Source: a virus. Taken from it: a DNA stretch of 35,158 bases. The stretch is taken from positions 1 to 35,158 of IMG/VR virus record IMGVR_UViG_3300033148_004379. The stretch is one strand, 5' to 3'. The notes beneath the pieces are model-generated. The model worked only from the letters and a program-made list of their open reading frames with translations, was not told the DNA's origin and did no database searches. Positions 1 through 28,741 of this stretch are shown here, piece after piece. A program made the position numbers and the translations under genes. How positions within the stretch are numbered: the stretch's first letter is position 1; each line of letters opens with the position of its first letter.

Positions 1-1287
1 CACGGTTACCGTAACAGTCCATTCCTGTTCAGTTACCTCATCTTCTGCCGTTACCGTATATGTAACAGGATTGGTAAAGTTCCGTGCCGTTCCAGAAGTG
101 GGGTCTATAGTTGCTCCTGCGCTGACTGTAATTGTAGGTGTAAGGCTTGTAACATTAGTGCCATATTCCACTTCTATGCTTACAGTATGGTTGGTTGCAT
201 TAACTGTTGCTTCCCCTGTCTGTTCCGCAAGGGTAAAACTAAGTATATCCGTTTCTGTACTTGCACCCCCCCCAGAAGAAAATACATAAGCCCCTACCTG
301 CCAGTCTCCGTTCTGGGCAAGAGTATCTATAAAAGAATCAACCACCCATGTTGCAGATGTAGCCAATCCATAGTTATACATTGATCCAAGGTTGGTTCCA
401 TAATCCAGCCGTGCTGTAGGTATCAATGTATATATACTTGTAAAATTAGGATTAAGGATAACAGAATGTTCATCATAACCTAATGCTCTCCATTGTGTCC
501 ACGAATATGTTGAGCCATTATATTCAAATATCGGTTCATGGTTTGTTCTGTTTACATAATAATATATATTATAATCACATTCAAACCCCAAAGTATCCAT
601 TTCTTCCGTAGTATCATCACCAGCCTGACCAAGACGTATCGCATGTGTTCCGGTATTTGTAGAATAAAATATATTATTATATATCTTAACCCTTTTTGAT
701 ACAGGATATGGTTCTGGTAGTTGGCTTGTATTACTTGATGCCACTATTATTGATAATAATTCTGTGCCCCTTGACGAATAAAATGTATTGTTAGATATTA
801 CCACGCTGTCCTGTCCTTTCGTAATAATAGCCATGTCACAATCCTTGAATACATTGTATTTGAACATACATGATTCGTTGACAGTTGGATTATGGTCAGG
901 GGTGCCACCCTCATGTATTATTCCATACCGGCAGCTGTCAAAGAAATTGTATCTTATATTATAATCACTGCAATAGCCAGCCATTATGGTATGTGCACTT
1001 CCTCCGGTAAGTTCGACAAATTTGTTTCCATACACTTCGGTACTGTCCAGTTTTTTGTAATAATCTGCTGCATAATCATCGGTTCCAACTTCAAGCATAA
1101 AACCGCCACTGTAAGCCGTCTGAACATAACTATTGCGAAACCATATTATCTTTTCTGTCGTGCTCCTGAAATCTAATCCCCAGTAATTCGTTACTGTTGT
1201 ATTATATCCTTCCTCAATCTGTATTGTCTGGGAGTATAGCCCAAATGCAGATAATAACGCAAATAATATTATTAATAGTTTTTTCAT
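1..1287 (-). CDS. Exported beta-helix protein with DUF5018-like C-terminal domain (partial, C-terminus beyond left edge)
   Basis: The frame is open for 429 codons from ATG at 1287 to base 1 with no stop, so the gene continues off the window. Residues 1-19 are a signal peptide (two Lys, a hydrophobic run, then LYS before Gln20). Residues about 60-230 carry the short Asn/Tyr/Phe repeats of a right-handed parallel beta-helix, such as YNFFDSC, SNNTFYS and YNNIFYS. From about residue 345 an Ig-like unit begins (DILSFTL, EVEYGTNVTSLTPTITV, NPVTYTVTAEDE), matching the pattern of DUF5018-type domains of Bacteroidota surface proteins. The start overlaps the stop of the upstream gene as ATGA (1284-1287), so the two are probably translationally coupled. 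By position it is a tail-associated glycan-binding or glycan-cleaving protein. No catalytic residues can be assigned, so enzyme activity is only a possibility. Confidence 0.8.
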   Translation of the reverse strand, partial: MKKLLIILFALLSAFGLYSQTIQIEEGYNTTVTNYWGLDFRSTTEKIIWFRNSYVQTAYSGGFMLEVGTDDYAADYYKKLDSTEVYGNKFVELTGGSAHTIMAGYCSDYNIRYNFFDSCRYGIIHEGGTPDHNPTVNESCMFKYNVFKDCDMAIITKGQDSVVISNNTFYSSRGTELLSIIVASSNTSQLPEPYPVSKRVKIYNNIFYSTNTGTHAIRLGQAGDDTTEEMDTLGFECDYNIYYYVNRTNHEPIFEYNGSTYSWTQWRALGYDEHSVILNPNFTSIYTLIPTARLDYGTNLGSMYNYGLATSATWVVDSFIDTLAQNGDWQVGAYVFSSGGGASTETDILSFTLAEQTGEATVNATNHTVSIEVEYGTNVTSLTPTITVSAGATIDPTSGTARNFTNPVTYTVTAEDEVTEQEWTVTVTV

Positions 1288-2153
1288 TGTACTCCCTTAT
1301 TTATACCATCCATATATGTCTCAACAATAGTATTTATAGCCTGCCATTGAGTAAGTGTCAGACCTGTTGTTACAAGTATAAACGATATTTCATTATTTGA
1401 TCCGGCAGAACCATCACTTGCAAGAAAAAACAGATCAACAGCGGAAGGTGAGCTTGAAGTGCTGCTTGATGTAGATGTGACAGAAGAGTTATTCCTGAAC
1501 ATCTCCATATTGGTTGAACTTGTCCTTGTAACACCAAAGAAACCATCGCTATTACCAACACTTGCACTTAATGAGGTTGCTACATTTATCCTTCCATACA
1601 TACTTCCGCTATAGTATGGAAATAATCTCATTGTATTAACAGAGTTACCTGCCACACCTGTCGTTTCGTTCACACTTTGCGTTCTTGTATAAACAGCTAT
1701 TGTAAAGTCATTTTGTGATGCATACAGGCAATCGGTTGACGGGTCAAAATTACTGTCGAAATAATTTGTCCCATCACCGGCATATCCCTGGTATGGCGTA
1801 AATGTCAATGACCCTGCCCCTGTTTCCACAAGATCATATGTTCCCGGAATAGTTACATTTGTTTCTGCTGCTTCCTCTGTTTTGTTTGCAAGGAAATAAA
1901 GCAATTCAACATTACTTGTATAATATCCGCCATCGATAAGGTCCTGTACTAAATCATTTTGCAGATCAGCCGTATCAATTTGTGGCCTGTTTGCTTCTGT
2001 TATCTCATAATAATAAGCCTTATAGACAGATGACCAGCTTGCAGAATCAACACCTGATGTAATTGCAGTATTATACCATACAGTTGTCGTTGTGGTTTGT
2101 GCTGTAGCAGTAAAAGACAGTATAAGCAATAGGGCTATAAATAGTATTTTCAT
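1284..2153 (-). CDS. Exported lectin-like tail-region protein
   Basis: This 289-aa protein has a clear type I signal peptide: residues 1-18 end in ATA before Gln19. The middle part (about 110-285) has the beta-strand pattern of a concanavalin/LamG-like jelly roll seen in phage carbohydrate-binding modules: a D-C-L-Y-A strand, NDFTIAVYTRT, MRLFPYYSG and FFGVTRTS. A Ser-rich stretch lies at about 222-235. Near the C-terminus, LTLTQWQAINTIVETYM is the short helix often found at the end of such modules in Bacteroidota phages. It lies two bases after the fibre-like gene and overlaps the next gene as ATGA, so all three probably sit on one transcript. The ligand is unknown. The lectin-like fold is inferred from pattern, not from a search. 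Confidence 0.75.
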   Translation of the reverse strand: MKILFIALLLILSFTATAQTTTTTVWYNTAITSGVDSASWSSVYKAYYYEITEANRPQIDTADLQNDLVQDLIDGGYYTSNVELLYFLANKTEEAAETNVTIPGTYDLVETGAGSLTFTPYQGYAGDGTNYFDSNFDPSTDCLYASQNDFTIAVYTRTQSVNETTGVAGNSVNTMRLFPYYSGSMYGRINVATSLSASVGNSDGFFGVTRTSSTNMEMFRNNSSVTSTSSSTSSSPSAVDLFFLASDGSAGSNNEISFILVTTGLTLTQWQAINTIVETYMDGINKGVQ

Positions 2154-2155
2154 AA

Positions 2156-3715
2156 TTATTCAGTTTCTATACGATATCCATAAATTGTTATTATTAGTTG
2201 CGTTGGTTTTGCTGTCGCTTCAGTAACCTTCCCATATAATACATTTCCAGCCGTAACAGTTCCATTGGCAATGCCTGTTGTCGAATTGCCTGTTGTTGTA
2301 CTGTTGACTGTTAGATCAGAAGTCAATACAGTCGTCGGGCTTCCGGAACTATAATCAGTGGCAAAATAGAAGTTTATATCTATATCAGGTGATGTTCCCT
2401 GTGCCCTCGTTTTAACCTTTGTTATAACAATGCTGTGAGATCCATCAATATCTATACCCCAAAATTTATTATTAAGTGTAAAAGCAAGGGTATCATTAAC
2501 ATTACCCACCCCCAACACAGGATTAAAAAGAGGTATGGTATCAGTTAGGATATAAGCAACAGTATCTATGTCAACTTCTGTAGATACTGGATTTTTATAA
2601 TAAAGTGTGTCACCTCCTGAATCCAATGCACAAATACCATCATCAAGTGTTATTGCCCATTTACTGACAACTCCACCACTTCCTACGTTAATATTTCCAA
2701 GAAGTGTTGTTCCGGTAAATGTCGGTGATGCACTAAATACAACATTGCTCGTTGATGTACCGGTTATACCTGTTGCTTCATCAAGGTAATTAAGTTGTAT
2801 TGTCGAAGATGTCATATCGTCAAGCACATTTATTTCCGATCCACTCGCTGTTACAGATGTTGACCCAAGAGTAAATGGTGAAGGAATGGTAACTGTTCCT
2901 GTAAATGTAGGAGAAGAAAGTGACGCATATTGTGCTGCTACCTCTGCCTCTCTAATATAATTAGCAAGCATCATTGCTGTATCGGCTGCTTCTATTATAT
3001 TAGAAGTAAGACCAACCAGTTTATTACTTTCTGATGTACTCCATAAAGCACCATTAAGAAGATTTAACTCAGTCGTTGATATTAAGGCCCCTTCCAATAT
3101 CCCAAATTCTGTAGGATCGACAATAGATGTTCCTAATGTTATACTTGTAGTGAATGTAGGCGATGTACCAAATACCAAAGCCCCCGATCCTGTATTGTCT
3201 GATATATTATTATCCAGACCAAGAGAATTGGTTATAGATGTTGCCCAGGCACTACCTGTTGATACCGCTATCCCAGATCCAGGATATGTCATACTACCTC
3301 CTCCTCCCCCCATTGTTCGGGCATATTCTCGGGTTGCCACAGTATCAGTAACCGGACTACCTATCTTTAACCATCCTGTAAAAATAGGTTCATTGCTAAA
3401 GACAACATTACTTGTTAATGTTCCTGTGGTTCCTCCTGCCGTGCTGAAATAATTCAGTCTGGTACCATTGGTTGTAACAGATGTTGATCCAAGGGTGAAT
3501 GGTGATGGTATCGTCAATGATCCTGTTAAGGTAACATCATCATATAGCTGCAAGAGAGATAATTTCCTTGTTGCATCCGATTGTTCAAGAGCAAGAACAT
3601 CTGTTCCATATTTGGCTGTCACCGCCGGTAAGCCACCAATGTTTATCTGTGAACAGGCTATTGCTGATAACATTATTAACGGAAATAATAATAATAGCTT
3701 TTTCATGTTTTTCAT
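2156..3715 (-). CDS. Tail-fibre-like protein with N-terminal export signal
   Basis: The 519-aa protein begins with a signal sequence. Either signal peptidase II would cut before Cys21 (AIAC, a weak lipobox) or signal peptidase I before Gln23 (ACS|Q). Fibre-type repeats follow. TIPSPFTLGSTSVT occurs at residues 68-81 and again at 276-289, and SNVVFS..P.FTGT-like units appear near 102-114 and 323-336, with a variant near 180-190. Helical segments with EFGILEGA, TELNLLNGA and EINVLDDM resemble the trimeric stalk repeats of phage fibres and collar spikes. The C-terminal 120 residues look like a compact beta-rich head. A second Met at residue 4 (3706) could also start translation. A consensus -7 promoter element and terminator hairpin lie just upstream (3732-3767). 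Virion location is inferred. An export signal on a fibre protein is atypical. Confidence 0.8.
   Translation of the reverse strand: MKNMKKLLLLFPLIMLSAIACSQINIGGLPAVTAKYGTDVLALEQSDATRKLSLLQLYDDVTLTGSLTIPSPFTLGSTSVTTNGTRLNYFSTAGGTTGTLTSNVVFSNEPIFTGWLKIGSPVTDTVATREYARTMGGGGGSMTYPGSGIAVSTGSAWATSITNSLGLDNNISDNTGSGALVFGTSPTFTTSITLGTSIVDPTEFGILEGALISTTELNLLNGALWSTSESNKLVGLTSNIIEAADTAMMLANYIREAEVAAQYASLSSPTFTGTVTIPSPFTLGSTSVTASGSEINVLDDMTSSTIQLNYLDEATGITGTSTSNVVFSASPTFTGTTLLGNINVGSGGVVSKWAITLDDGICALDSGGDTLYYKNPVSTEVDIDTVAYILTDTIPLFNPVLGVGNVNDTLAFTLNNKFWGIDIDGSHSIVITKVKTRAQGTSPDIDINFYFATDYSSGSPTTVLTSDLTVNSTTTGNSTTGIANGTVTAGNVLYGKVTEATAKPTQLIITIYGYRIETE
2849..2890 (-). repeat. Internal duplicated segment in fibre-like gene (second copy 3473-3514)
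   Basis: These 42 bp encode TIPSPFTLGSTSVT (residues 276-289) and match 3473-3514 (residues 68-81) at protein level without change and at DNA level with scattered third-base differences. The copies are followed in each case by a SNVVFS-type unit about 20-35 residues later. The synonymous divergence suggests an old duplication kept by selection. Confidence 0.8.
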
Positions 3716-3731
3716 TTTTCATCATTTTATA

Positions 3732-3767
3732 CAAAAGTACCGTATCCCTATTAAAAGAATACGGTAC
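3732..3767 (-). promoter_or_regulatory. Composite terminator hairpin and -7 promoter box upstream of the fibre gene
   Basis: A perfect 9-bp inverted repeat (GTACCGTAT at 3737-3745 and ATACGGTAC at 3759-3767) is followed on the minus strand by TTTTG. It sits 25 bp after the stop of the 305-aa gene, as expected for an intrinsic terminator. The last three stem bases plus this tail read TACTTTTG (3739-3732), an exact match to the Bacteroidota -7 consensus TAnnTTTG, 24 nt before the fibre start codon. No TTTG lies at the usual -33 distance, so promoter activity is less certain than the terminator. Confidence 0.55.
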
Positions 3768-3791
3768 AAATAGTCATCTTTCACGAACCTT

Positions 3792-4709
3792 TTACTCCAC
3801 CTCTGGTCCGGGTACTTCTGCTGTCTTTGGCTTTGTTGCTCTCTTTCCGCTAAGTAACGAAGCCACTTCGTCTGCAAAATGCTTATCCCCCAGGTAATAA
3901 TCATACAATGATTCATAGGGGTTGCTGCTGGGCCTTATTTGGCATATAGGCTCATTCTTCTTCCCCTGTTCTGTTACCCAGGCCCATGTCCTGTTTGGCT
4001 CCATGAACGTGATAATGTTATTATCAATAGCTTTCTGTAAAGAAGATCTTATTTCCAAGACCGCATCTGCCTCAACCAGTTTAAGGAAGTTTTCAACACC
4101 TGATCTCTTATCCCTATGCACAACCATCTCTACGGCTAATTTAACCTGTGCATAAGTCAACTCATCAACATCTCTTATAAAGTACGCTTTCGCTACTGTT
4201 CTCAGTTTTTTCTCGCCAAGACCAACCTTTGATGAGTAGATAAGAGCCTTAACTGTTGCCAGTTGTTCTTCATGCATTGCTTTACGCTCGGCTTGTCCTA
4301 CCAAATCTTCAATAGCACATTTCGGCACTTTGCCATTGAAATTATTTCCCCCTTCAAGATGAGGGCAGCATTTTATAAGCCAGTACACCAGTTCAATGTC
4401 CTCCTCCTGTAACATCCTCATCCCACGTAATATCATATTGTGGGGCGACCATATTACTTTACCATTTGTACCAATAATCTTATTCTCTGCATATCTCCAA
4501 CTCTCCGTTCCTGTCTTTGTCTTGACTGTAGCCACAAAAGGAAAGGATATAGAGTTGGGTTTATCCGGGAGCTTATTGTGCTTGGACCGTGATGGTTTTA
4601 CACGGCTCTCGGGGTAAGTTAGCTTGATCGGAAACTTAGGAAACCTCTGTTTCACATATTTATGATCTGCTGCCGTTAATGTGTAGATCTCGTTATTCTT
4701 GTATAACAT
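3792..4709 (-). CDS. Conserved-position structural-module protein, unknown function
   Basis: This 305-aa protein is not recognised. It is basic at residues 20-55 (KQRFPKF, SRVKPSRSKHNK), has mixed alpha/beta content, and has a CC pair at about 113-114 in LIKCCPHLEG. The region RDKRSGVENFLKLVEADAVLEIRSSLQKAI is helical. The C-terminus is Pro/Lys-rich and ends in a short acidic tail. It follows the major capsid gene but is separated from it by a terminator, so it is either read through at low level or has its own promoter. Position directly after the capsid gene suggests a head-completion, decoration or DNA-binding virion role, but nothing in the sequence decides this. No signal peptide or membrane segment is present. 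Confidence 0.75.
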   Translation of the reverse strand: MLYKNNEIYTLTAADHKYVKQRFPKFPIKLTYPESRVKPSRSKHNKLPDKPNSISFPFVATVKTKTGTESWRYAENKIIGTNGKVIWSPHNMILRGMRMLQEEDIELVYWLIKCCPHLEGGNNFNGKVPKCAIEDLVGQAERKAMHEEQLATVKALIYSSKVGLGEKKLRTVAKAYFIRDVDELTYAQVKLAVEMVVHRDKRSGVENFLKLVEADAVLEIRSSLQKAIDNNIITFMEPNRTWAWVTEQGKKNEPICQIRPSSNPYESLYDYYLGDKHFADEVASLLSGKRATKPKTAEVPGPEVE

Positions 4710-4732
4710 AGCTTTAATTATTTTTTGTTAGT

Positions 4733-4763
4733 AAAAAGGAAGGGCCGTTATATGGACCCTTCC
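4733..4763 (-). terminator. Intrinsic terminator after the major capsid gene
   Basis: On the minus strand GGAAGGGTC, an 8-nt loop and GGCCCTTCC form a 9-bp stem with one G-U pair, followed by TTTTTAC. It lies 15 bp past the capsid stop codon. Confidence 0.85.
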
Positions 4764-4777
4764 ATATTATTCACCGT

Positions 4778-6160
4778 CTATGCCGGTTCCATAAGTAAAA
4801 ACTGGTTTCCACCCCTGAAATGCGCACCTATATGGCATCTCTGGTAGGTGTTCCTGCTGTCAAACTCGGTAACTTTCAGGCCATCACCTGCGCCACCAAC
4901 CTGCCATACTTCCATCCTTCTCTTATAACGGCCAAGACCACGATAGCGTGTACCGATGGATTCAACCATATTGCCTGAGACAGGATCTTTCTTCTTGTTG
5001 ATAGGCATAAACATACCAAGTTTGGGTCCTATGGCTTCATAACCGCTGGCTCCATAGAGCTTGGGGTTATTAAGAACGCCCATTCTTTTAAACAGGAAGG
5101 TCCTCTCGGACTTAACCAGATACTTGAAGTTTACTGATGCAGCCAGAGATTCGTTCTTATTGAAAAGCACCTCATTGGTTGTCTGCTTTGCATAATTGAT
5201 GTTTGTGTCGGCAAAGTAAGTAACAAGGGCATTTTCAATATCCTGGTGCAGGGTAATTCCAAGTAGTCCAAGGATATAATTTCCTGCTCCTTCACGGTCA
5301 AGGGTATTGTCCATCTCATCAAATTCACCTATGTCAAACGCACCGCTTGTATAAGACTGCTCGTTCCCTACCCTACGGACGTAAGGTATCATCCCTTCTG
5401 TAGTCTTAATAAGGCGGCCTGTTTCTGAATCTATTAAAGATGAATTAACGGTCCTCTTACCGAATAGCAGCGCACCATCGATGCGGAGAGCCATACGGTA
5501 ATCAATATCGACCTGACCAAGGAAATAATATGCAGGGATTTTATATCCCATGGAAGTAACATCAAACCATGTCTGGTTGACCATCTCCGTTCCGGTATAA
5601 CCAATAGTCTCTTTGATTATCTGAGCATCGTTCTCATACTCCCAGGTCCCCCTGATAGCTCCGTCCGGCTGCCCTGATCCTTCGGAAAAGGCATTGGTTA
5701 TAATGATCAACTCATCGCCTGCAGTAAGTGCCGGGAACTGCTCTGTATCATCATTCAACGTACAGGTGATCTCCGGTGCTGTTGGCGTGGTTACATCGAT
5801 GTCTGTTACTGAACCGGTAACTTCGTTCGGGAACAGGATAACATCCCACATCCTTACATAAAAGTTATTCTTTGCATCCAAACTATCTGAATCAAGGACA
5901 AACGCAATATCGGCACCGATTGCTGGTTGGGCCACATTAGCATCCACAATACAGATCTCATGGATCCGGTTTTCTTCATAGTGCGAATAGGTATCAAGAC
6001 TTACTTCCTTCTCAAATCCAAGGGATCTGAGTAACTGGAAATAACTTGCCCCCTGATCTCCGTACCTTGAAAAAAGTACATTTAGTTTCTCAGGTTTGTG
6101 AATATCAAAACCTGAAACTATATCTGAGGCGTATATTTGTGCAATAGCATCTGGATTCAT
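4778..6160 (-). CDS. Putative major capsid protein
   Basis: The 460-aa product is assigned by synteny: it follows terminase, portal and a scaffold-like protein in the usual head-gene order and is followed by a strong terminator, as is common for the most highly expressed head gene. The N-terminus (NPDAIAQIYASDIVSGFDI) is helical. The body is rich in short beta segments (ITCTLNDDTEQFPALTAGDELIIITNAF at about 133-160 looks like an extended E-loop or insertion). A GARTYRGLGRYKRR-like basic stretch lies near residue 405, with the exact residues GTRYRGLGRYKRR. There is no signal peptide, membrane helix or protease motif. The size is compatible with HK97-fold capsid proteins, but the fold is not provable by eye. 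Confidence 0.75.
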   Translation of the reverse strand: MNPDAIAQIYASDIVSGFDIHKPEKLNVLFSRYGDQGASYFQLLRSLGFEKEVSLDTYSHYEENRIHEICIVDANVAQPAIGADIAFVLDSDSLDAKNNFYVRMWDVILFPNEVTGSVTDIDVTTPTAPEITCTLNDDTEQFPALTAGDELIIITNAFSEGSGQPDGAIRGTWEYENDAQIIKETIGYTGTEMVNQTWFDVTSMGYKIPAYYFLGQVDIDYRMALRIDGALLFGKRTVNSSLIDSETGRLIKTTEGMIPYVRRVGNEQSYTSGAFDIGEFDEMDNTLDREGAGNYILGLLGITLHQDIENALVTYFADTNINYAKQTTNEVLFNKNESLAASVNFKYLVKSERTFLFKRMGVLNNPKLYGASGYEAIGPKLGMFMPINKKKDPVSGNMVESIGTRYRGLGRYKRRMEVWQVGGAGDGLKVTEFDSRNTYQRCHIGAHFRGGNQFLLMEPA

Positions 6161-6207
6161 AATTCTTCATTTTAAAATTCAACATAAATACACACCTCTT
6201 ACTTAGA

Positions 6208-7401
6208 TTACTTGTTATACTGATCCATCTCTGCATCAAAGATGTCATCCTGCAGTTTCTCCTTATCGGTCCTGTTGTCAGGTGATGGTGGTGCAGGTGG
6301 GGCATCATTATTCCTGGATGGTGACGGATTCTCATACATCTTGTGGACTTCTTCTTCGGTCATGTTTCTCGCCTTCTCAAATACGGAATGTACGATCTCT
6401 GGCAGCTTGTTTATCATCAACTGGTTATAAACCATATGACTGATCATGCGCATATTTGTTTCGTTGGGTTCCATCTGGTTCTCAACGGCATAATTTGCAA
6501 CAAAATCCCGGATGTCTTTTTGATCGGATTCTGATATTTCATAGTCCAAAAGAGCATCCTTTCTGTCTTTGATGGGTATTTTCAGCTTAGTCAGAGCTTT
6601 ACCGATTTCCTGTCCTACATTACTCCATCCGGTTTGCAGTTTGGATCGTTCCTCCGGAGATAACTCCTTCGGCTTATCATCAGGTGTTGGTTCAGGAACT
6701 TTTAACTTCCCTTTCAACTCCTGTAACGCTCGTATGGCGGTGGCTCCGTCTGCCTCCACCTCTAATTTGTTGAGTTCAAGCGTTTCTTCCTCAACTTCGT
6801 TAGGATCCAGATTATACTTCTTCTCGAAGCGTTTACGAACCAGGTCCTCACGACTTGCTAATTCGGGGTGATCAAGAATATGCTTGATAACAAGAGCCTC
6901 CATGGGATCCATGTTGGCCATATCAGCACCATTTAGTTTCTCAAACACCTTATAGTTGCGCACTCCGGTTTCTCTGACAAACTCGTTAAATAATGCCACT
7001 TCGTCATTTGCGAAGTTTGTTTTGGGCTTACTTTCAAGTTTGGATTCCAGATCAGCCTTGGTCTGTCTCAGGCTCTCGACCTCATCCAGAACGCCGGAGA
7101 TATTTGCTTGTTTGGCCTCATCAACCGTCTTAAAACGATCTCCAAAAATCTCTTTCAGAAATGCATCCTGCGGTTGAGGGGCCGGTGGTTCGTCTTTCTT
7201 TGGTGGTTCCGGTGGTGGATCCCCGGATCCAGGCTGGGGTTCCGGTGGTGGATCACCACTACCCGGCTTGGGTGCCGGGGGATCTCCCGGCTCATTAATA
7301 TCTTCGCCCCGTGCTGCTGCCATAAATTTATCAGGATCTACACCCTCAATATCTTTAAGAGCATCAAACTCGGGATTACCTAAATAGTCTTTTTCTGCCA
7401 T
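6208..7401 (-). CDS. Putative head scaffolding/assembly protein
   Basis: This 397-aa, strongly charged protein sits between portal and major capsid genes, the classic scaffold position. Residues about 38-85 form a Pro/Gly/Asp low-complexity linker with PPPEP and GSGDPPPEP repeats. Residues about 110-135 (VLDEVESLRQTKADLESKLES) look like a coiled coil, and the rest is mostly acidic amphipathic helix. A second Pro-rich patch (NDDAPPAPPSPDN-like, about 372-382) precedes a helical C-terminus, where many scaffolds contact the capsid protein. No protease catalytic motif is visible. It is separated from the portal by only two bases. Function is inferred from composition and position. Confidence 0.7.
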   Translation of the reverse strand: MAEKDYLGNPEFDALKDIEGVDPDKFMAAARGEDINEPGDPPAPKPGSGDPPPEPQPGSGDPPPEPPKKDEPPAPQPQDAFLKEIFGDRFKTVDEAKQANISGVLDEVESLRQTKADLESKLESKPKTNFANDEVALFNEFVRETGVRNYKVFEKLNGADMANMDPMEALVIKHILDHPELASREDLVRKRFEKKYNLDPNEVEEETLELNKLEVEADGATAIRALQELKGKLKVPEPTPDDKPKELSPEERSKLQTGWSNVGQEIGKALTKLKIPIKDRKDALLDYEISESDQKDIRDFVANYAVENQMEPNETNMRMISHMVYNQLMINKLPEIVHSVFEKARNMTEEEVHKMYENPSPSRNNDAPPAPPSPDNRTDKEKLQDDIFDAEMDQYNK

Positions 7402-7403
7402 GA

Positions 7404-9704
7404 TTACGCCGTTTTAGTTTTTAATTGATCTGTCTTTGTCTCATATGATTTCTCTAAAGCTATTTGCTCTAATTTCCTGCGATGTTCTCTATCATTGTTG
7501 CGATCTTCAAGATCGGCCTTAACTGTCTCTTTCTTTATTTCAAGGTCATTATCAAATGCCTTACCTTCTCTTTCAAGCTGTGCCTTTAGTTGTGTTGTTT
7601 CCTGCTCTCTCTTAGCGTCCAGTTGCATATTCTCTCGCTGTAACCTCTGTTGACGTTCTTTATTCTTCCGTGAACGATAGTTAAGCATTATCTCTGCCAG
7701 TTTCTCGTTGCCATTCTCCAAGAGCCTCTCTATCATAATAAAGTCACCTTCCTCAATGCCTACATAACCATCCCTGTCCGGCTGCATAGATTTCATAGCA
7801 GCTTCTAATATCACCTGCTTCCTCTCCCTGGTCGGTTTGGCCTGTATTTTTATCTCATAGTCAGCATCGATAACATCGGCACCAACGGATAATATCTTAA
7901 CTCCGGATCCTCCAACAACAGGTATATAACCTTCATAGGCCTCCTTGTCATGCTTGATTAATATCTGTATCCTGATAGCAAGGCTACGTGCGACCTGTTC
8001 ATAAAGACGTATATATGCTGAATATAGGGGTTTGAGAGCATTGTTTGTTGCGGCAATAGCCATCTGGCTCCCCCCTACACTCTGTTGTGGATCTGGCGTT
8101 GAGGCATCAGCTATCTTATTTATCCCTGTAAGCTCCCTGATCATTTCCAGGTTCATCTCAAGAAGCGTTATATACTCATTTAGCTGTGGCCCTATGCCTC
8201 CCGTTAATTCCTGTATGGGCCTCATGCCACCGGGTAGGTTAGGCTTACCCAGATGTGTTGTTGCTTTATATATCAAATCGCCCGTATCCCTGCGTATAGT
8301 CAATATATCAAGCGGCTCCATCTTCTGACCTCCCAGGGTCATATTCATCAACGAAGTATATTCAACAGCTATACCGGAGTTAGTTGCCATGGCAATAGCA
8401 TTTTGCAGTTTAAACCATGTAAGCTCCATCTGATCGATATTAGCTCTTGCAAGATCAACAATGGATCGTCCGGGCAGTTTATAAAACTTATAAGGCAGTT
8501 CAACCTCTTTCTTCCCGGGTCTGGTGGTGTCATATTGCAAACCAAAATCGTAAACGAAATTTGTTCCTATTATCCACTTACAGCGATAAACAACCTTATA
8601 TTTTGTTATTACCGTTTTCTTGTCAGGCTTATCATATACTTTACCCTCTTTCTCGTCATAAGAAAATGTATCTCCTCTGGAATTGGTGCGATATGTTCTT
8701 CCACGATGATTTAATGAAAACCAGCAAGCATCGACCACATCAATCATAAAGGTATCATACTTCCATCCTCCACCTTCCCCCTTCAGATCTTCCTCTGACC
8801 ATGATGATATAGTCTGGTTAGCATACCTGCCATTATAGAATTGTGCTATCTGACGCAACTCATCCTCACTTATGTTGGTGTTCTTGCGTATGTTTGAAAT
8901 AGATTCCTGAATTATTTCACCACCATATTCAGAATTGCGGTGATCCCAATAACGGCTGTATTGGATTATAAGTTTAGCTGGATTAACATATCTTACCTTT
9001 GCTTTCCGGGTATATTGATCTGTATAGTCTTTTACTGCAGCACAGTTAATAGAGGCAAAGTCATAAATCATTTTTCGCTTTATCTCATCCCAATCAGATA
9101 TGTAAAAAGAATAGTCCAGGCCTTCCTCTATCTCCGTTTCCTTAACCATCTTGAAGCCACCTGCCTGTTCATATATCCCCAATTCGTCAAGTGTTTCCGG
9201 TATCCATTCTGGTTCAGGCTGGTAATTAGATAATCTGTTTACTGCATCCAGGACTGGCTTATACCTACCCTTAAACCATTTGCGCAACTTGGATATTTCT
9301 CTTGTTTCTGAGCTTTTGGGATCCACGGCACTTGCAACTATGCTGTGGCCCTGTTCTTCCATTATGCCTTGAATTATATGCAAAAATTTAGGCATAACAG
9401 CAAGAGGATCCCAATTTATATTCATAAATCCTTCAAGATCCCCTCCTTCTTCTGATTCGTCAAGTAGTATTTTTTGGTATCGTGAAACGTCCTGACTGCC
9501 CTCTGCGAATTTCCGTAATGTATGTAATTCGTCTATATTGGAATAAGGTATCCCTGTTCTGTCAGTCACATAAGCCGCATAGATGGCCTCACACACCTTC
9601 CTCCCCCATTGTGCTGTTTTCTGGGATGTGGGGATCTCGTCTTTGGGAAAAGGGAACGTATTATGTTGATACGACCCCAATGTTCTAATCTCAAGATCTG
9701 CCAT
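7404..9704 (-). CDS. Portal protein
   Basis: The 766-aa protein lies directly after the large terminase. Its length and layout fit the long portals of podovirus-type and crAss-like phages. The segment around residues 522-560 (ELTGINKIADAST, followed by QQSVGGSQMAIAATNNALKPLY) is typical of the portal stem/crown region, where a helix follows an early-tail contact loop. Residues from about 671 to the end form a long Arg/Lys/Glu/Gln-rich coiled coil (RKNKERQQRLQRENMQL), perhaps a crown or internal barrel. It forms the dodecameric DNA channel at one capsid vertex and docks the terminase. The gene begins 23 bp after the TerL stop. No frame break is seen. Confidence 0.85.
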   Translation of the reverse strand: MADLEIRTLGSYQHNTFPFPKDEIPTSQKTAQWGRKVCEAIYAAYVTDRTGIPYSNIDELHTLRKFAEGSQDVSRYQKILLDESEEGGDLEGFMNINWDPLAVMPKFLHIIQGIMEEQGHSIVASAVDPKSSETREISKLRKWFKGRYKPVLDAVNRLSNYQPEPEWIPETLDELGIYEQAGGFKMVKETEIEEGLDYSFYISDWDEIKRKMIYDFASINCAAVKDYTDQYTRKAKVRYVNPAKLIIQYSRYWDHRNSEYGGEIIQESISNIRKNTNISEDELRQIAQFYNGRYANQTISSWSEEDLKGEGGGWKYDTFMIDVVDACWFSLNHRGRTYRTNSRGDTFSYDEKEGKVYDKPDKKTVITKYKVVYRCKWIIGTNFVYDFGLQYDTTRPGKKEVELPYKFYKLPGRSIVDLARANIDQMELTWFKLQNAIAMATNSGIAVEYTSLMNMTLGGQKMEPLDILTIRRDTGDLIYKATTHLGKPNLPGGMRPIQELTGGIGPQLNEYITLLEMNLEMIRELTGINKIADASTPDPQQSVGGSQMAIAATNNALKPLYSAYIRLYEQVARSLAIRIQILIKHDKEAYEGYIPVVGGSGVKILSVGADVIDADYEIKIQAKPTRERKQVILEAAMKSMQPDRDGYVGIEEGDFIMIERLLENGNEKLAEIMLNYRSRKNKERQQRLQRENMQLDAKREQETTQLKAQLEREGKAFDNDLEIKKETVKADLEDRNNDREHRRKLEQIALEKSYETKTDQLKTKTA

Positions 9705-9727
9705 AGGATTATGTTTTGACCAATATA

Positions 9728-11986
9728 TTAATTTTTTTGTGTTTTTATAACTGTTTTACGTACAAATTTATCAAGAGTTACTTCTTTATTTTCTATTTTC
9801 TCAATCTCATCATATATACCGGCTGTACCCAGAAGGGCATAGCCACCGGCAGTAAACAGGTCAAAATCAGTCATTTCTTCCGGCCCTGCAATATCCCTAC
9901 ATTCCTCCAATAGTTCAAAATGATTTTCTTCATCAGCCTCAAATTCTATGAAATTCATAAATTCAGAAAAAATCTCCTGTTTAATCTTATCATTAGTATT
10001 TGCGCCCGGTGTTTTTTGTTGTTGAAAAGTTTTTGGATCTACTCTATAAAGTAAAAATGCGGCATATCCACGTTGCTCAAAATAATCCCAGACCAGATCC
10101 ACATTTATCTCGGGAAATATAGGCACACCGTAATAAACACACATCATAAGCATATCTTCTGCATACTCATATTTATTATAGGTCCTATTACTGTAAGTAC
10201 ACACAAATTTGCGTTTCATTGAGAAATCACCATCTTTGATCTTTCCTTTGCGTACCACGGCACCACCACCTTTGGATTTGCGGTTCCATTCTGTCTTATT
10301 AAACTTAAACGGGTCTGCCCCGCCCACTCCCCAATGGCTATTGCCCGGCTTCCAGGAACCAGTAATCTCATCCCAGTATTTGCGATTACTCTCATTGTCA
10401 TTAAGTAGGTGTGAAACCTTAAATTTACCTCCTTTGCGTGGTATGAATTCAACACGGGTGTCTCTTTCATTATTAACCCAGCGAAAATCGCCCTCAATGG
10501 GTAGTTCGCTTGATTTTTTAAATCTTAACTCATCGATGTATGTTTCAAGTTTCTGCATATTAAAGCCTGATGACTTGGCTGCTGTGCGGAAACACTCAGT
10601 AAATGACATAGGGTAGAGCCTCACTTCTTCGCTCAATCCTTCATAATCGCCTGCATCAATGTAGCCTTTTCTGCGGTTAAGAAGATATTCCTTGGCTCCT
10701 ATCTTACGACCAATAAACTCTGCCTGTTCTTTTGTTGGTGTGTCAATAATCGAATTACCATAGCGATCAATAAAACCCTGCAGTCCTTCATAGGCCGGGA
10801 TAAACAGGTTTATTAATCCTGATCGTGATTGGCCGTTAGGTGTTCTCTGGAAGTAATCTGACATTTCACATTGATGTTTAAAGGCCTTTCCTCCTCCTCT
10901 CTCCATCTCCCCAACGGTAGATGTCTTAATGGTAAATCCCACTATCTCTGATCCTGTTACCAGGCACTCTTTAACTACAAGGTGTCTATCCCAACAACTA
11001 AGGCCTTTCTTTAATTTACCAACCTCATCATCGTGATGAAAATACAGCTTATCGCCATCGTATGTGCCTGCATCTGCCGGTCCAAAGTTTATCATTGAGT
11101 TAAGGCCAATCTCGCTGGTTGCAAGTGATCCTTTGCTGGATAGTCTCTTTGCTGGTGGTGAGAAACTTAATTCGGTCTTAGGTGATGTTGACCCTTCGTA
11201 ATTAGGCTTGAAGAAAAATGGTAGTTTCTTCCATGGTGATATAAGATGTTTAAGAAAACACTTACGCCCCTGTGTTTCGTTCATACTCTGGATGCCTCCC
11301 CAGGCACCAATGATTCGGCTTATTATCTCATAGTTGATACATTCAGCCTTAGATGTTGCTCCCTCCCTGCGGTGTTTAGGATAATTAAACCCATAAAATA
11401 CCCTGCCTCCTGTCTCTATAAAATCAAAATAACCTGTATCCTCATTAGGTACACCATTACCATTATCATCTAAAAACTTGAACGTTTTCGTTTCGGTGTA
11501 ACACATACGGGCAAAGATGAAGAATTTCCTGTCTCTATCCCGGTATTTTGGTAAGCCAACGTCAATATGCCACCATGAGATGTAAAAATAGTGCCAACCA
11601 TCAATGTATGTCGGTTTGCCATTGTTATAGAACCAATATCCAAACAATCTGTGATACCATTGTTTTCTAATAAACTCGATTTCCTGGGCATATATTTCCT
11701 GGTTCTTCTGTAGCTGTTCCCATATTTCATCTATAGTCTCGTATTTGCGTTGTAGTTCTTTTAATCGTCTGGGTAATTGTGGTGGTCTGAAATACTGATC
11801 CTTTGCTGGTAAGCCAAAGTTATCAATATGATGCGGTAACGGCATCTGTGGCAGGTCTATCTTGATAGGAGTAAGATCTTTATCATTTTCATTAACCCAC
11901 AAATATCTATCAGCATTTTTATATTGCGATAGTATGGATGTCTCTATCTCATCACTATATGTCTTTATCAGAGATAGGTTGCTCAT
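9728..11986 (-). CDS. Large terminase subunit (TerL)
   Basis: The 752-aa protein has both terminase domains in order. In the ATPase half, a deviant Walker A reads RREGATSK at 206-213, a Walker B is seen as KLYFHHDDE (Asp320, Glu321), and the coupling motif is KTST near 354-357. In the RNase-H-like nuclease half, the acidic residues expected are Asp558 (GGADPF), Glu626 (VPIFPEINVD) and Asp707/Asp709 (MTDFDLFTAGGYALLG). It packages the genome by ATP-driven translocation through the portal and cuts concatemers. The start at 11986 overlaps the upstream gene by 32 bp. The family is large for a TerL, with a roughly 100-residue N-terminal extension before the ATPase core. Confidence 0.9.
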   Translation of the reverse strand: MSNLSLIKTYSDEIETSILSQYKNADRYLWVNENDKDLTPIKIDLPQMPLPHHIDNFGLPAKDQYFRPPQLPRRLKELQRKYETIDEIWEQLQKNQEIYAQEIEFIRKQWYHRLFGYWFYNNGKPTYIDGWHYFYISWWHIDVGLPKYRDRDRKFFIFARMCYTETKTFKFLDDNGNGVPNEDTGYFDFIETGGRVFYGFNYPKHRREGATSKAECINYEIISRIIGAWGGIQSMNETQGRKCFLKHLISPWKKLPFFFKPNYEGSTSPKTELSFSPPAKRLSSKGSLATSEIGLNSMINFGPADAGTYDGDKLYFHHDDEVGKLKKGLSCWDRHLVVKECLVTGSEIVGFTIKTSTVGEMERGGGKAFKHQCEMSDYFQRTPNGQSRSGLINLFIPAYEGLQGFIDRYGNSIIDTPTKEQAEFIGRKIGAKEYLLNRRKGYIDAGDYEGLSEEVRLYPMSFTECFRTAAKSSGFNMQKLETYIDELRFKKSSELPIEGDFRWVNNERDTRVEFIPRKGGKFKVSHLLNDNESNRKYWDEITGSWKPGNSHWGVGGADPFKFNKTEWNRKSKGGGAVVRKGKIKDGDFSMKRKFVCTYSNRTYNKYEYAEDMLMMCVYYGVPIFPEINVDLVWDYFEQRGYAAFLLYRVDPKTFQQQKTPGANTNDKIKQEIFSEFMNFIEFEADEENHFELLEECRDIAGPEEMTDFDLFTAGGYALLGTAGIYDEIEKIENKEVTLDKFVRKTVIKTQKN

Positions 11987-12593
11987 TATTGGCCAGTTTT
12001 AGTGCAATATCTTCCGGTCTTAACTCTAATCTTTCTTCTTCCATATATCTCAAAACAGCATCTTTAAGGTATGGATTATCATCCTCAACCAGTAGTTGTG
12101 CCATTGTATCCTCTAATTCTTCCTGTATGTTACGAAGATCGGGGATCCTTTTTGTAGCACCTTCTATCACTTCCAGCATCACATTATAATAACTGGCTTC
12201 GATAGTCACCAGATAAGTATATTTGAATGATCGCTGCATACGCACAAATTCAACAATCTTATTATTAATGACCTTATTAAGGCCTTTAAGCATATTTTCT
12301 ATTGGATCCTCAAATTTGCCTTTATCATCCATATTAAAACCTACATCGTGAGCTATCTCTATCTTGCGTTTTAATACGTCAGAATATTTGTTTCGATATG
12401 GGGTGGCTTTATCATACATAGCCATGATATACAGCATCACCAGATCATTGTCTATTTCTGGGCCTGGTGACTTTTTAAAGATCTTATGTTTTTTCAGTTC
12501 GGGGAAGATAGTAAATACTGATTCACCATCCGGAACCTTAGAGATATTAAACATCATACCTCTAAATTCAAGGTCTGCAAATTGCCAGTTCAT
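11955..12593 (-). CDS. Unknown head-module protein; candidate small terminase by position only
   Basis: This 212-aa, mostly helical protein lies immediately upstream of TerL, where TerS is often found. The start overlaps the preceding small gene as ATGA (12590-12593). Residues 95-150 (IENMLKGLNKVINNKIVEFVRMQRSF) contain amphipathic helices, and 160-195 are acidic. No helix-turn-helix of the usual TerS N-terminal type is evident, because the N-terminus (WQFADLEFRGMMFNISKV) looks beta-like. TerS is therefore a possibility, not a call. It could also be a head-tail adaptor or a non-structural protein. The tight coupling to TerL indicates coordinated expression. Confidence 0.7.
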   Translation of the reverse strand: MNWQFADLEFRGMMFNISKVPDGESVFTIFPELKKHKIFKKSPGPEIDNDLVMLYIMAMYDKATPYRNKYSDVLKRKIEIAHDVGFNMDDKGKFEDPIENMLKGLNKVINNKIVEFVRMQRSFKYTYLVTIEASYYNVMLEVIEGATKRIPDLRNIQEELEDTMAQLLVEDDNPYLKDAVLRYMEEERLELRPEDIALKLANNEQPISDKDI

Positions 12594-12751
12594 TTGTCTT
12601 TATAAATTTCAGATGTTTTCTTTAAAATAAAAAGATCGATAACTGTAACCCCCTGTGATGGCGGTTCGGCATATATATCAGCATCAAGATAACCTTCCTT
12701 TAAAAGGAAATTGGTATATTCTTCAAGTATTTCTTTTTCTTTTGTTGTCAT
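12590..12751 (-). CDS. Small acidic protein (53 aa), unknown
   Basis: A 53-codon frame begins with ATG at 12751, overlapping the stop of the GroES-like gene as ATGA, and ends with TGA at 12590-12592, overlapping the next start as ATGA. The product reads MTTKEKEILEEYTNFLLKEG, then a short loop and DLFILKKTSEIYKDK. Double coupling on both sides and protein-like composition make it very likely to be real. Function is unknown. Confidence 0.75.
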   Translation of the reverse strand: MTTKEKEILEEYTNFLLKEGYLDADIYAEPPSQGVTVIDLFILKKTSEIYKDK

Positions 12752-13443
12752 AATTTTGCAAGTATATCGTGTCTTTGTGCCCTGTATAACTTACGTCCAC
12801 CATCTATCTTGGCATGATATTCATATTCAACAGGTATATCCCTGATCTTTTTCATAACTATCTCATCCCCTTCTTTAAGGTCATAATACTTATCGGCCTT
12901 ATATATGCTGTCAATATATGACTTATTTGGTTTGCCAATATATGCTATCCGTCCATAAACCACATCTGTATTGCTTGGTTTTCTCAGGTCTGGCAGTTCA
13001 AGGTCTGCCCGGGCCGCCTGTTCTTTTTGCCTTATCCATTCAGGATCCTCCATTGGTTCGACAAGGATATAACCATTAATAGGTATTATCTTACCGTCAC
13101 GTATAGCAGCGTATATATTATGATATTTAATAAATATCCACACATTATCGCCATCTCTGGCATAGTTCTTTTTTTCCGGGGCCAGGCAATTCTGCACGGC
13201 AAGGAAATACATCACCACCCTGTCACCAATCATAAGTTCTATTTCTGTTTCCCATGGCAGGCCTGTACCTGATGTTATTATCCTTTTTGGCAGGGCAACC
13301 ACTTCACCTACTCTTACAATGTGCTTTTCTGGCTCAAATGATGTATCGATGAATAATTTTATTCCTGATGGTGTTTTGATAAATTCATTTTCCTGGTCCA
13401 TCTTCACCATCACGTTATTTGACATCATGCGCTTTGCTTTCAT
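12748..13443 (-). CDS. Tandem-domain GroES-like co-chaperonin
   Basis: The 231-aa protein reads as two consecutive Cpn10 folds. In domain 1 (about 8-115), NNVMVKM matches the first GroES strand. TPSGIKLFI is in the place of the mobile loop, and RVGEVVALP, GDRVVMYF and YHNIYAAI follow in GroES order. In domain 2 (about 119-231), PINGYILVEPME, VVYGRIAYIG, LKEGDEIVMKK and QRHDILAKL follow the same order. GroES-like caps bind the GroEL ring, and phage versions such as T4 gp31 help fold large capsid proteins. Its place just before TerL, portal and capsid genes suggests a head-assembly role. Two-domain Cpn10 is known from plastid Cpn20. In phages it looks unusual. The first five residues may not be used, since Met6 and Met7 are alternative starts. 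The second domain has a long insert in place of the loop and may have lost GroEL binding. Confidence 0.75.
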   Translation of the reverse strand: MKAKRMMSNNVMVKMDQENEFIKTPSGIKLFIDTSFEPEKHIVRVGEVVALPKRIITSGTGLPWETEIELMIGDRVVMYFLAVQNCLAPEKKNYARDGDNVWIFIKYHNIYAAIRDGKIIPINGYILVEPMEDPEWIRQKEQAARADLELPDLRKPSNTDVVYGRIAYIGKPNKSYIDSIYKADKYYDLKEGDEIVMKKIRDIPVEYEYHAKIDGGRKLYRAQRHDILAKL

Positions 13444-13729
13444 AGTCTTTATTTTTTATACAGGTCATCTGTCCATTTATCTCAACAAACATAATCTTCC
13501 CTTTCTTCTCCATCACCCTGAACCGTTGTGCCATGGCCCGGCGGTCCTTGCGGCTCATCTTATTCCACAGGTTAATTTCTGATTTACGCATATTGATCCA
13601 TTGGTCATGGTATTTGACGCACACATAACGGTTTAATACTTCTGTTGCCTTGGGTGGTTCAGGCTCGCTGGTAGGTTTTATCCAGAGCCATTTTTTTAGC
13701 CATAAGAATAATTGCCGAACGATATTCAT
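13415..13729 (-). CDS. Small basic protein, unknown
   Basis: The 104-aa product begins with a Trp/Leu/Lys amphipathic helix (LFLWLKKWLWIKP) that could touch a membrane or a protein surface. A Pro/Glu linker and a basic region (MSRKDRRAMAQRFRVMEKKGK) follow. It ends inside the start of the GroES-like gene (29-bp overlap) and begins just after a strong terminator. Function is unknown. It is too hydrophilic for a holin. Confidence 0.65.
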   Translation of the reverse strand: MNIVRQLFLWLKKWLWIKPTSEPEPPKATEVLNRYVCVKYHDQWINMRKSEINLWNKMSRKDRRAMAQRFRVMEKKGKIMFVEINGQMTCIKNKDYESKAHDVK

Positions 13730-13740
13730 ATTCTTTTAGT

Positions 13741-13764
13741 AAAAAGGGGGTATTACGCCCCCCC
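13741..13764 (-). terminator. Intrinsic terminator after the FN3-like gene
   Basis: On the minus strand a G-run (13764-13758), loop CGTAATA-like bases and CCCCC (13750-13746) form a G/C stem followed by TTTTTAC. It lies 13 bp after the stop of the FN3-like gene and isolates that gene as a single transcript unit. Confidence 0.8.
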
Positions 13765-13777
13765 GTGTTAATCAATC

Positions 13778-14299
13778 CTAAGTTGCAGCCGTTTTAAACG
13801 ACTTTAATTCACTATATACTGTTCCTGTGGCAGAAACAATCTTGATACGATAGTAATATTGAGTATCTGCATCCAATCCTGTAAGGGGGATGACAATCGC
13901 TGTATCGCTATCATCAGCACTTATGTCAGGTGTAGATGTACCAGCCTGGTTAGTTCCCAGGGCCGGTGTTGTACCATAGTCGGCAGAAAATGCCGTTGAT
14001 ACACCCTGGTTATCAATAGTAGCGTTCAGGTTGGCAGCCGATGATGTGATAGTATCTTCCGCAGCCACAGCAACTATCTTAGGCATCTCATCACCCTGCA
14101 GGAACTCCTGAGTAGCAACACTAAGGGCATCAGTAACAAAACCTGCCACATCAGTCTTATCACCTACATAATGAACTTTTTTAGATTCTCTAACAACAAA
14201 CAGGTTACGTTCATATGGTCCTCTTTGTGTCAACCCAACTTTGGGATTTACCGGCTTTACGGTAGCCTTTACCTCGATGTCAATTATAAAATCATCCAT
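13778..14299 (-). CDS. Fibronectin-III-like decoration/virion protein
   Basis: I place the start at 14299 (MDDFIIDIEV), giving 173 aa. The upstream in-frame ATG at 14410 lies beyond a terminator hairpin and would add a Cys/Phe-rich leader that looks non-coding. The C-terminal 75 residues match an FN3/Ig-like beta sandwich, with DTAIVIPLTGLDADTQYYYR and the G-TVYSELKSFKT ending strand. FN3-like domains are common on phage capsid or tail surface proteins, where they bind glycans weakly. The N-terminal half (about 1-75) has no recognised family. The gene is flanked by terminators on both sides, implying its own promoter and strong independent expression. A near-consensus TATCTTAG lies upstream. 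Confidence 0.75.
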   Translation of the reverse strand: MDDFIIDIEVKATVKPVNPKVGLTQRGPYERNLFVVRESKKVHYVGDKTDVAGFVTDALSVATQEFLQGDEMPKIVAVAAEDTITSSAANLNATIDNQGVSTAFSADYGTTPALGTNQAGTSTPDISADDSDTAIVIPLTGLDADTQYYYRIKIVSATGTVYSELKSFKTAAT

Positions 14300-14350
14300 T
14301 TGTATAAAGTTTTTAGTTAAACTTGACACTAAGATACAAAAGATTTTAAT

Positions 14351-14379
14351 AAAAAACCCCCAATGCGCACATCGGGGGT
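14351..14379 (-). terminator. Intrinsic terminator after the winged-helix gene
   Basis: On the minus strand ACCCCC-G-ATG, loop TGCG, CAT-T-GGGGGT form a 10-bp stem with one G-U pair, followed by TTTTT. It is about 190 bp past the stop of the winged-helix gene and just upstream of the FN3-like gene. Confidence 0.85.
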
Positions 14380-14538
14380 CACTTGCTATGAAACAAGACT
14401 TGCAGATCAACCGTTCGGCACCGGCTAACTGATGTAAATTTATAAATTATTTACAGAAATTATGATTTATTAATTTTTCTTTTTTCTTAACTACCTTAAT
14501 ATACAGCACGGATGGTTATTCTATATATATATTATTGG

Positions 14539-14580
14539 TTCCCGTAATTCAGCATAGGTATTCCCGTAATTCAGTATAGG
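14539..14580 (-). repeat. Two tandem 20-bp direct repeats overlapping a stop codon
   Basis: TTCCCGTAATTCAGCATAGG at 14539-14558 and TTCCCGTAATTCAGTATAGG at 14561-14580 differ at one base and are 22 bp apart, about two helical turns. The second copy contains the last codons and stop (14571-14573) of the winged-helix gene. The arrangement suggests a protein-binding iteron or operator for the product of that gene, or an origin element. This is inference. Confidence 0.75.
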
Positions 14581-14900
14581 GTCACACGGAGCCTCCGGAG
14601 CTTACCATCCCATGAAACTGTTTCCAGGACCTCTTTCTTTTTAAGGCTTGTAATTACGTTAGCGATAGTCTTTTCGCTACAGTTAAGAAGCTCACTAAGG
14701 TACCTGTTGCTGGCGTAGCAATGGTTAGGTGAGCTATCAAGGTGATAGATATATGCAAGCAATATACGCTCATGGTATGTGAGCTTATCGTTTTGCAATA
14801 TTTCTCTGGGGATCCACAGGCCCTTTACTCCTTTAGGGTCTATTGTTGGCTTATCGGGATTTATCTCCTGTTCCCATGGTGGGGAGATATATTCATTCAT
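14571..14900 (-). CDS. Winged-helix DNA-binding protein (replication-initiator or regulator type)
   Basis: The 109-aa protein resembles the N-terminal helix-turn-helix domain of plasmid and phage replication initiators and DnaD/RepA-like proteins. It has GLWIPREILQNDKLTYHERILLAYI, then CYASNRYLSELLNCSEKTIANVITSLKKKEVLE as the recognition-helix part and a wing ending RLRVTLY. It binds DNA in a sequence-specific way by family expectation. Two 20-bp direct repeats begin inside its last codons, a likely target. Its leader contains a promoter followed by nested inverted repeats and a terminator-like hairpin, so expression may be attenuated. It is short, without the C-terminal domain seen in full initiators. 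Confidence 0.75.
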   Translation of the reverse strand: MNEYISPPWEQEINPDKPTIDPKGVKGLWIPREILQNDKLTYHERILLAYIYHLDSSPNHCYASNRYLSELLNCSEKTIANVITSLKKKEVLETVSWDGKLRRLRVTLY

Positions 14901-14914
14901 GCTAACAGAATTTA

Positions 14915-15015
14915 GATTGAAACGTTAGTACAATATTATAAAAAAAAAGGCCACCAGTCAATTGGTGGCCCTTGTAGGGACGCTTTCTAAATGCGTTTCA
15001 ATCAAATCTGAAAGC
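14915..15015 (-). other. Structured leader: nested inverted repeats before the winged-helix gene
   Basis: GATTGAAACG at 14915-14924 is the exact reverse complement of CGTTTCAATC at 14994-15003. Inside it lies the terminator-like hairpin at 14949-14970. A further pair, GCTTTC (14982-14987) and GAAAGC (15010-15015), competes for the same strand. In RNA from the minus-strand promoter at 15026-15055 these arms could form alternative structures, one with and one without the terminator stem. This fits an attenuator or small structured RNA. No known family is recognised. Confidence 0.5.
14941..14970 (-). terminator. Terminator-like hairpin with T8 tail
   Basis: On the minus strand GGCCACCA, a 6-nt loop and TGGTGGCC form an 8-bp perfect stem followed by eight T residues. 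It could end transcription of the 119-aa gene operon. It also lies downstream of a promoter and 41 bp before the winged-helix start, so it may act as an attenuator. Confidence 0.85.
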
Positions 15016-26737: not shown

Positions 26738-26768
26738 CAAATATATGCAATCAAACTGAATTAAGCAA
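26738..26768 (-). promoter_or_regulatory. Promoter overlapping the end of the recT-like gene
   Basis: On the minus strand TTG (26768-26766), 20 nt, TATATTTG (26745-26738), an exact -7 consensus. The -33 element is inside the last codons of the RecT-like gene. It would drive the 89-aa and HNH-like genes through the hairpin at 26678-26708. Confidence 0.6.
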
Positions 26769-28259: not shown

Positions 28260-28270
28260 AACATTAATTT

Positions 28271-28741
28271 TTACCAGACAACAAACCAATCATCACTTAG
28301 CATATCTGTCTGAGATGCTAACCAACCAATGACATATTTATTATCTGCGGTTTTCATTATAATAAAATCTAAACACTCACGTTCCCGATCCTCTGGTTTA
28401 GTTAATCGGAAACAGGAATCAATAGCTTCCTGAACATTATTGCCCGGGATCATGCGAATAAACATATCCTTCCCGTTCCATCCCTTTCTTGCAACTGCAT
28501 GACCTTTCATCATTGCTTCAACAGCCATGCCAAAGGGCATATTATCTGCCTGCCGGTAAGCTTCTTCAAAAACAACTTTAGGCGACCAAGATTCATATCC
28601 ATCAGGATAAATTACCAAATATCCTGGTTCATCAAATTGTTTTGCCTCCATGGGCCTGTTAAGCCGTCTTATAGCCTCATGATAACTACAACTGTAGGCT
28701 TTTACGAGCTTTGTTCCAATGTACTTTTTTACGAAATTCAT
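28271..28741 (-). CDS. DUF2829 protein, Tad2-like (anti-Thoeris), with N-terminal companion domain
   Basis: Residues 69-156 match DUF2829: PFGMAVEAMMKGHAVARKGWNGKDMFI, then DFIIMKTADNKYVIGWLASQTDML and DWFVVW. DUF2829 is the family of Tad2, which sequesters the Thoeris signalling molecule so that the defence cannot be activated. The hallmark R-x-GWNG and W-ASQ-DML-DW residues are present. Residues 1-67 form a separate domain (IGTKLVKAYSCSYHEAI, then EPGYLVIYPDGYESWSPKVVFEEAY) that is often fused to DUF2829 in phages as I recall it. Anti-defence function is inferred from the family. The spacer to the RecT-like gene is 11 bp. Confidence 0.85.
   Translation of the reverse strand: MNFVKKYIGTKLVKAYSCSYHEAIRRLNRPMEAKQFDEPGYLVIYPDGYESWSPKVVFEEAYRQADNMPFGMAVEAMMKGHAVARKGWNGKDMFIRMIPGNNVQEAIDSCFRLTKPEDRERECLDFIIMKTADNKYVIGWLASQTDMLSDDWFVVW

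Follow-up and report, generated by a model that had tools for sequence, protein, structure and literature searches.

Signal peptidase I (SPI) cleavage before glutamine, the Q-rule, is established for Bacteroidota (Bochtler 2018, PMC5837995), and phages of Porphyromonas gingivalis (Nixviridae) carry Q-rule genes for which use of the host secretion system has been proposed (Matrishin et al. 2023, PMC10367356). Cryophage encodes cargo proteins of the type IX secretion system (T9SS) (Bellas et al. 2020, PMC7468147). Here we analyze a linear viral record of 35,158 bases (IMG/VR record IMGVR_UViG_3300033148_004379; its whole length is called the window), one end of which holds three consecutive minus-strand genes, C, B and A. 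They encode a fibre-like, a lectin-like and a beta-helix protein, each beginning with a predicted Sec/SPI-type signal followed by Gln. Like the Nixviridae Q-rule genes, these belong to a phage and encode SPI signals with a predicted cut before Gln; the Nixviridae proteins, however, come from five function-unassigned genes and are not presented there as a fibre/lectin/beta-helix cassette in the tail-fibre slot. With the Cryophage cargo, the window would share variable Bacteroidota phage genes for exported, glycan-active proteins. The Cryophage proteins (endoglucanase, GH39, PA14) bear T9SS sorting domains, whereas no such domain (PF18962/TIGR04183) was found in B or C, and A is visible only up to the contig end.

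Phage adhesins are usually taken to be cytoplasmic virion parts. For C, B and A we favour, at a rough probability of 0.55, a reading in which they are late-made, exported adhesion or depolymerase proteins that act outside the cytoplasm, and not classical tail fibres. The genes and their recognizable parts are as follows.

2156..3715, minus strand: gene C, fibre-like protein of 519 amino acids (aa) with a signal peptide and two tail-fibre-type repeats
3650..3715, minus strand: predicted signal peptide of C, MKNMKKLLLLFPLIMLSAIACS, then QINI (Q23); alternative lipobox with Cys21
1284..2153, minus strand: gene B, lectin-like (LamG/ConA-like) protein of 289 aa with a signal peptide; phrog_17104, E 3e-6
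2100..2153, minus strand: predicted signal peptide of B, MKILFIALLLILSFTATA, then QTTT (Q19)
1..1287, minus strand: gene A, beta-helix protein with a signal peptide, cut by the contig end, 429 aa visible
1231..1287, minus strand: predicted signal peptide of A, MKKLLIILFALLSAFGLYS, then QTIQ (Q20)
271..1230, minus strand: right-handed beta-helix domain of A, mature residues 1-320, from alignment and fold comparison
1..261, minus strand: DUF5018 domain of A (PF16410), residues 343-429, E 2.3e-11, above the curated cut-off

The original prediction was that three consecutive genes in the tail region carry export signals cut before Gln. As predicted features, the signals hold up: translations, coordinates, a scan of the window and null rates all agree. 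Each of the three genes starts at ATG, with 2 bp between C and B and a 4-bp overlap between B and A, and each product fits the SPI pattern of the Q-rule, having a basic n-region, a hydrophobic core, a small residue at −1 (and usually at −3) and Gln at +1. Signals were called with a home-made, rule-based scan of every open reading frame (ORF) in the window, and only C, B and A scored as having a signal directly before Gln (hereafter a Q-signal). The same configuration was seen in 39 of 18,140 shuffled N-termini, in none of 422 antisense shadow ORFs, in 8 of 254 genes near the capsid genes of close relatives, and in 0 of 426 from distant capsid relatives. From the null rates, we infer that three Q-signals in a row among ∼57 genes would arise by chance with a probability on the order of 1e-6. 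Chance, antisense artefact and wrongly assigned starts were rejected on these rates and on the tight gene spacing. When cleavage sites were called blind to Gln, using crude site scoring, Gln occupied +1 in 10 of 59 signal-like genes and was still the commonest residue there.

The signal of C also contains a lipobox (SAIAC, Cys21), which A and B lack, and cleavage before this Cys by signal peptidase II is possible from the sequence. We favour SPI because the sister fibres of C in L085 and L091 (L-numbers label the compared viral contigs and records) have no Cys at that position. That the proteins are exported by the host's Sec/SPI pathway, following the Bacteroidota Q-rule, is the conclusion we hold most firmly, and the N-termini make it very probable. 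Placement in the tail region is less direct, as the contig ends inside A; it comes from relatives, in which the corresponding slot lies between gene D, the next gene upstream of C, and the next tail gene.

C, B and A lie among structural genes. The relatives used to examine their slot were retrieved by capsid protein, and hence without bias towards fibres. In most close relatives, large fibre, lectin or spike proteins without a signal stand downstream of D (L077, L078, L080, L081, L084, L089, L092, L094 and L095). L091 has a signal-less 1099-aa BNR protein and then three consecutive signal-bearing genes, encoding a 363-aa fibre, a 252-aa LamG protein (PF13385) and a 913-aa beta-helix protein, the last with Glu, not Gln, after the predicted cut. 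In L085, a 307-aa fibre with a signal is followed by a LamG-like start before the contig breaks off, and the beginning of that fibre is also present in L087. In L039 and L096 (one contig), the first tail genes are followed by a 460-aa fibre, a 209-aa protein with no recognized domain and an A-type beta-helix protein, the last at least 1094 aa long; each of the three has a Q-signal at an internal-ATG start. The triad order thus recurs in L091, in L039/L096 and, in part, in L085/L087. Judged from the sequences, the arrangement of fibre, middle protein (LamG-like in most) and beta-helix protein is constant while the proteins themselves are divergent, which suggests an exchangeable cassette. Beside the triad, L091 and L096 keep a signal-less receptor-binding-type 'SYW' protein, so the triad looks like an addition rather than a replacement; this was judged on these two, since the window and L085 end too early.

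A comparable cluster is found in L012, where four consecutive signal-bearing genes downstream of a tape-measure-like gene encode a LamG protein, a beta-helix protein with a predicted cut before Thr, a 165-aa tail-fibre repeat protein and a pectate-lyase-like spike; L031/L032 carry a similar set. No signals were found on structural genes of the isolates phi38:1, elemoE and crAss001 (1-50 kb). A separate exported-type family of ∼150-170 aa adjoins tail or lysis genes in L093 (16720-17175), L095 (17542-18180) and L032 (18148-18624). Its members have mature starts QSIW or QSAW, an aromatic residue at or near the C-terminus and the look of outer-membrane barrels, and the two tested had no Pfam match.

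The fibre character of C rests on its repeats (residues about 62-121 and 264-338), which are 52-53% identical to the signal-bearing fibre of L091. C matched nothing in Pfam or PHROG, and single-protein scans of viral contigs recovered no relatives of it. From residue 34 on, the L085 sister matches the C-terminal part of tail proteins in 265 phage records, mostly of Gordonia phages and annotated, among the matches listed, as minor tail protein; in three inspected cases, 303 to 820 residues precede the match. By sequence, the L085 signal appears to stand where other phages have N-terminal tail-protein sequence, a region that would serve in docking. Known fibres and tailspikes thus resemble the cassette in part, Gordonia minor tail proteins sharing the fibre C-terminal domain of the L085 sister, and HK620 and Pam1 tailspikes the beta-helix fold of A. 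In tailed phages, however, such proteins have N-terminal tail-protein regions and no signal (one was inspected, the Gordonia homologue Tolls gp29, read from its start), whereas a Sec signal is present here instead.

For B, single-protein scans of viral contigs likewise gave no relatives, and comparison of loci later linked it to others. Its domain occurs without a signal in receptor-binding-type proteins of L006 and L091, in L022 and in elemoE gp40. The structure model of B has low confidence (predicted local distance difference test, pLDDT, 55); it is jelly-roll-like and may be compatible with a lectin-type jelly roll. Its fold matches, to generic jelly-roll domains of lectin type (toxin binding domains among them), were not taken as relationship.

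The AlphaFold2 model of A, with pLDDT mostly above 85 over residues 20-339, confidently predicts a right-handed beta-helix for mature residues 1-320. Its closest folds in VIA-align are polysaccharide lyases of family 6 (PL6; Z 20.9) and phage tailspikes (Z 17-18); likeness of the model to PL6 says nothing about enzyme activity. The beta-helix domain of A has relatives in 15 viral contigs, of which the signal-bearing ones in L012, L013, L018 and L039 have an added PL9-like lyase domain. In signal-bearing copies, the signal ends exactly where the domain starts, and Gln is the first domain residue. Signal-less paralogues in the same genomes open directly with the domain: it occurs in an 810-aa protein with a signal and a 1627-aa protein without one in L008, and in proteins of 374 aa (with) and 929 aa (without) in L009. 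The short L009 protein had no homologues among isolates. Phages thus drop the signal when the domain sits in a long tail-region protein, and keeping it suggests a need for export. In Bacteroidales metagenome-assembled genomes, bacterial homologues mostly have a Q-signal before the domain; for this reason, the phage copies probably derive from, or belong to a common pool with, secreted bacterial proteins. Adjoining signal-bearing or signal-less relatives of A is a further exported-type family of ∼190-205 aa (L009 2533-3105, L014 14537-15154, L017 1957-2541 and L019 2575-3144), which begins SSCTC..Q and has both a lipobox and a Q site. Its L009 copy matched neither Pfam nor PHROG.

Some relatives of A carry a further export tag. 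L030, a 259,840-base record that includes a terminase, encodes one after the other two beta-helix proteins (7974-14932) that bear signals and end in T9SS sorting domains, as do signal-bearing relatives close to them in L018 and L041. A 405-kb record (that of L035), which has a terminase and a gp23-type capsid match, encodes a protein with both a signal and a T9SS sorting domain near a PorP/SprF family gene (PF11751, E 8.6e-29; L159 1-375, a piece only). The latter is possibly a phage-borne T9SS component.

We propose that C, B and A form an exchangeable cassette of fibre shaft, lectin and beta-helix spike or lyase fitted with host Sec/SPI signals. It would be made within the late structural stretch, and its proteins would cross the inner membrane and be cut before Gln, which host glutaminyl cyclase would turn into pyroglutamate. 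They would then act in the periplasm, at the surface or in the medium on envelope or capsule glycans, most likely by binding or trimming those recognized by the phage's own receptor-binding proteins. Progeny might then leave more easily and avoid re-adsorption to the dying cell and debris. T5 offers a parallel in its lipoprotein Llp, an envelope protein made by the phage that prevents progeny loss on the receptor of the lysed host. The logic of sparing progeny is the same, although Llp is a lipoprotein, concerns a porin-type receptor and belongs to an unrelated sequence family.

The original prediction had posed a choice between a surface role and an unusual assembly route. The choice was well posed, and what we found tips it towards a function outside the virion: the sister fibre lacks the tail-protein N-terminus, L091 and L096 retain a signal-less protein, and the ∼260-kb phage has T9SS-tagged homologues of A. 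Three points weigh against our reading. In relatives the slot is occupied by ordinary fibres, a fact that would fit a virion role just as well; the visible part of A has no lyase domain; and B and C have neither a T9SS domain nor a clear surface anchor by which they might leave the periplasm before lysis.

The alternative that survives best, though we consider it unlikely, is that C, B and A belong to the virion as fibres but reach it through the periplasm, being exported, folded outside the cytoplasm and docked during or after lysis. Consistent with this are the fibre-type repeats of C, the tail-fibre C-terminal domain of the sister proteins L085_1 and L039_1, the slot shared with ordinary fibres, and the capsid and tail gene neighbours in several lineages, including the position after the tape-measure gene in L012. 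However, the mature N-termini have no shared docking domain (across the sister fibres, this region is not conserved, as judged by eye), the ordinary tail-protein N-terminal region is missing, and L091 and L096 keep signal-less receptor-binding-type proteins alongside. Somewhat more doubtful still is the general form of this idea, that tailed phages of Bacteroidota send fibre, lectin and spike subunits out through Sec and that these join virions outside the cytoplasm, while the cell lyses or afterwards. We know of no precedent in tailed phages for exported, externally docked virion fibres, nor did our search of the open-access literature find them described.

A second alternative holds that the proteins are displayed on the surface and alter the cell during infection, through superinfection exclusion, masking or adhesion, in the manner of lysogenic conversion or early exclusion. 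DUF5018 is known from Bacteroides surface proteins, T9SS-tagged homologues exist in other phages, and such a role was proposed for the Cryophage T9SS cargo (Bellas 2020, PMC7468147). We nevertheless regard this as improbable, given the late structural location and the lack of a T9SS domain in B and C. Lysogenic conversion, which the original prediction had named, finds no support: the genes lie in a structural stretch, and no integrase was recognized among the window genes searched, a non-exhaustive set from a partial contig. Least probable of all is that the hydrophobic N-termini are unused leftovers of captured bacterial secreted genes or misassigned starts, since, common as the A domain is in secreted bacterial proteins, C has phage fibre repeats rather than a bacterial secreted domain, Gln is retained at the cut in divergent phage copies although the signal varies, and phages lose the signal elsewhere.

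Q-rule and T9SS proteins of phages have each been reported singly. As far as we found in the open-access literature, an exchangeable adhesin triad that carries export signals and occupies a tail-fibre slot, with signal-less counterparts of its domains in sister phages, has not been described. The presence of the same modules with and without a signal in one slot suggests that phages direct an adhesin now to the virion, now to export. Should they be exported, such proteins would make up a class of phage proteins that act late and outside the cell, with effects on how progeny are released and re-adsorb and on the removal of capsules in a dominant bacterial phylum; should they sit on virions, they would imply an unknown assembly route. 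Annotation pipelines that call these genes tail fibres, and host-range predictions made from them, would be misled.

The remaining features of the structural stretch, which runs in the minus-strand order terminase, portal, scaffold-like gene, capsid, D, C, B, A, are listed here.

11986-9728, minus strand: terminase, PHROG family
9704-7404, minus strand: portal, PHROG family
7401-6208, minus strand: scaffold-like gene
6160-4778, minus strand: major capsid protein, PHROG family
4709-3792, minus strand: gene D, between the capsid gene and the cassette
3737..3767, minus strand: intrinsic-terminator-like hairpin between D and the cassette, 13-bp stem, then TTTTG; z −4.1

With this hairpin in place, expression of the cassette may be separate from that of the capsid genes. 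A second terminator-like hairpin lies between the capsid gene and D (4738-4763). A promoter scan of the window gave a result at chance level, and an exact 29-mer search for a continuation of the contig beyond the window end returned no match. Among named phages, no close DNA relatives of the window were found, and its portal is ∼25% identical to those of Flavobacterium (elemo) and Cellulophaga podovirus records. Nearer relatives are metagenomic, namely L003 (capsid 88%, portal 81%) and the 67-kb contig L006 (capsid 71%, portal 52%). Upstream of the L006 terminase, seven genes (1169-7726) have a sugar-metabolism or glycosyltransferase look from N-terminal sequence alone. Elsewhere in the window are a C-5 cytosine DNA methylase (PF00145; 21388-22299) within a plus-strand block of small genes, RecT (26751-28289) and a YqaJ exonuclease (30609-31712).

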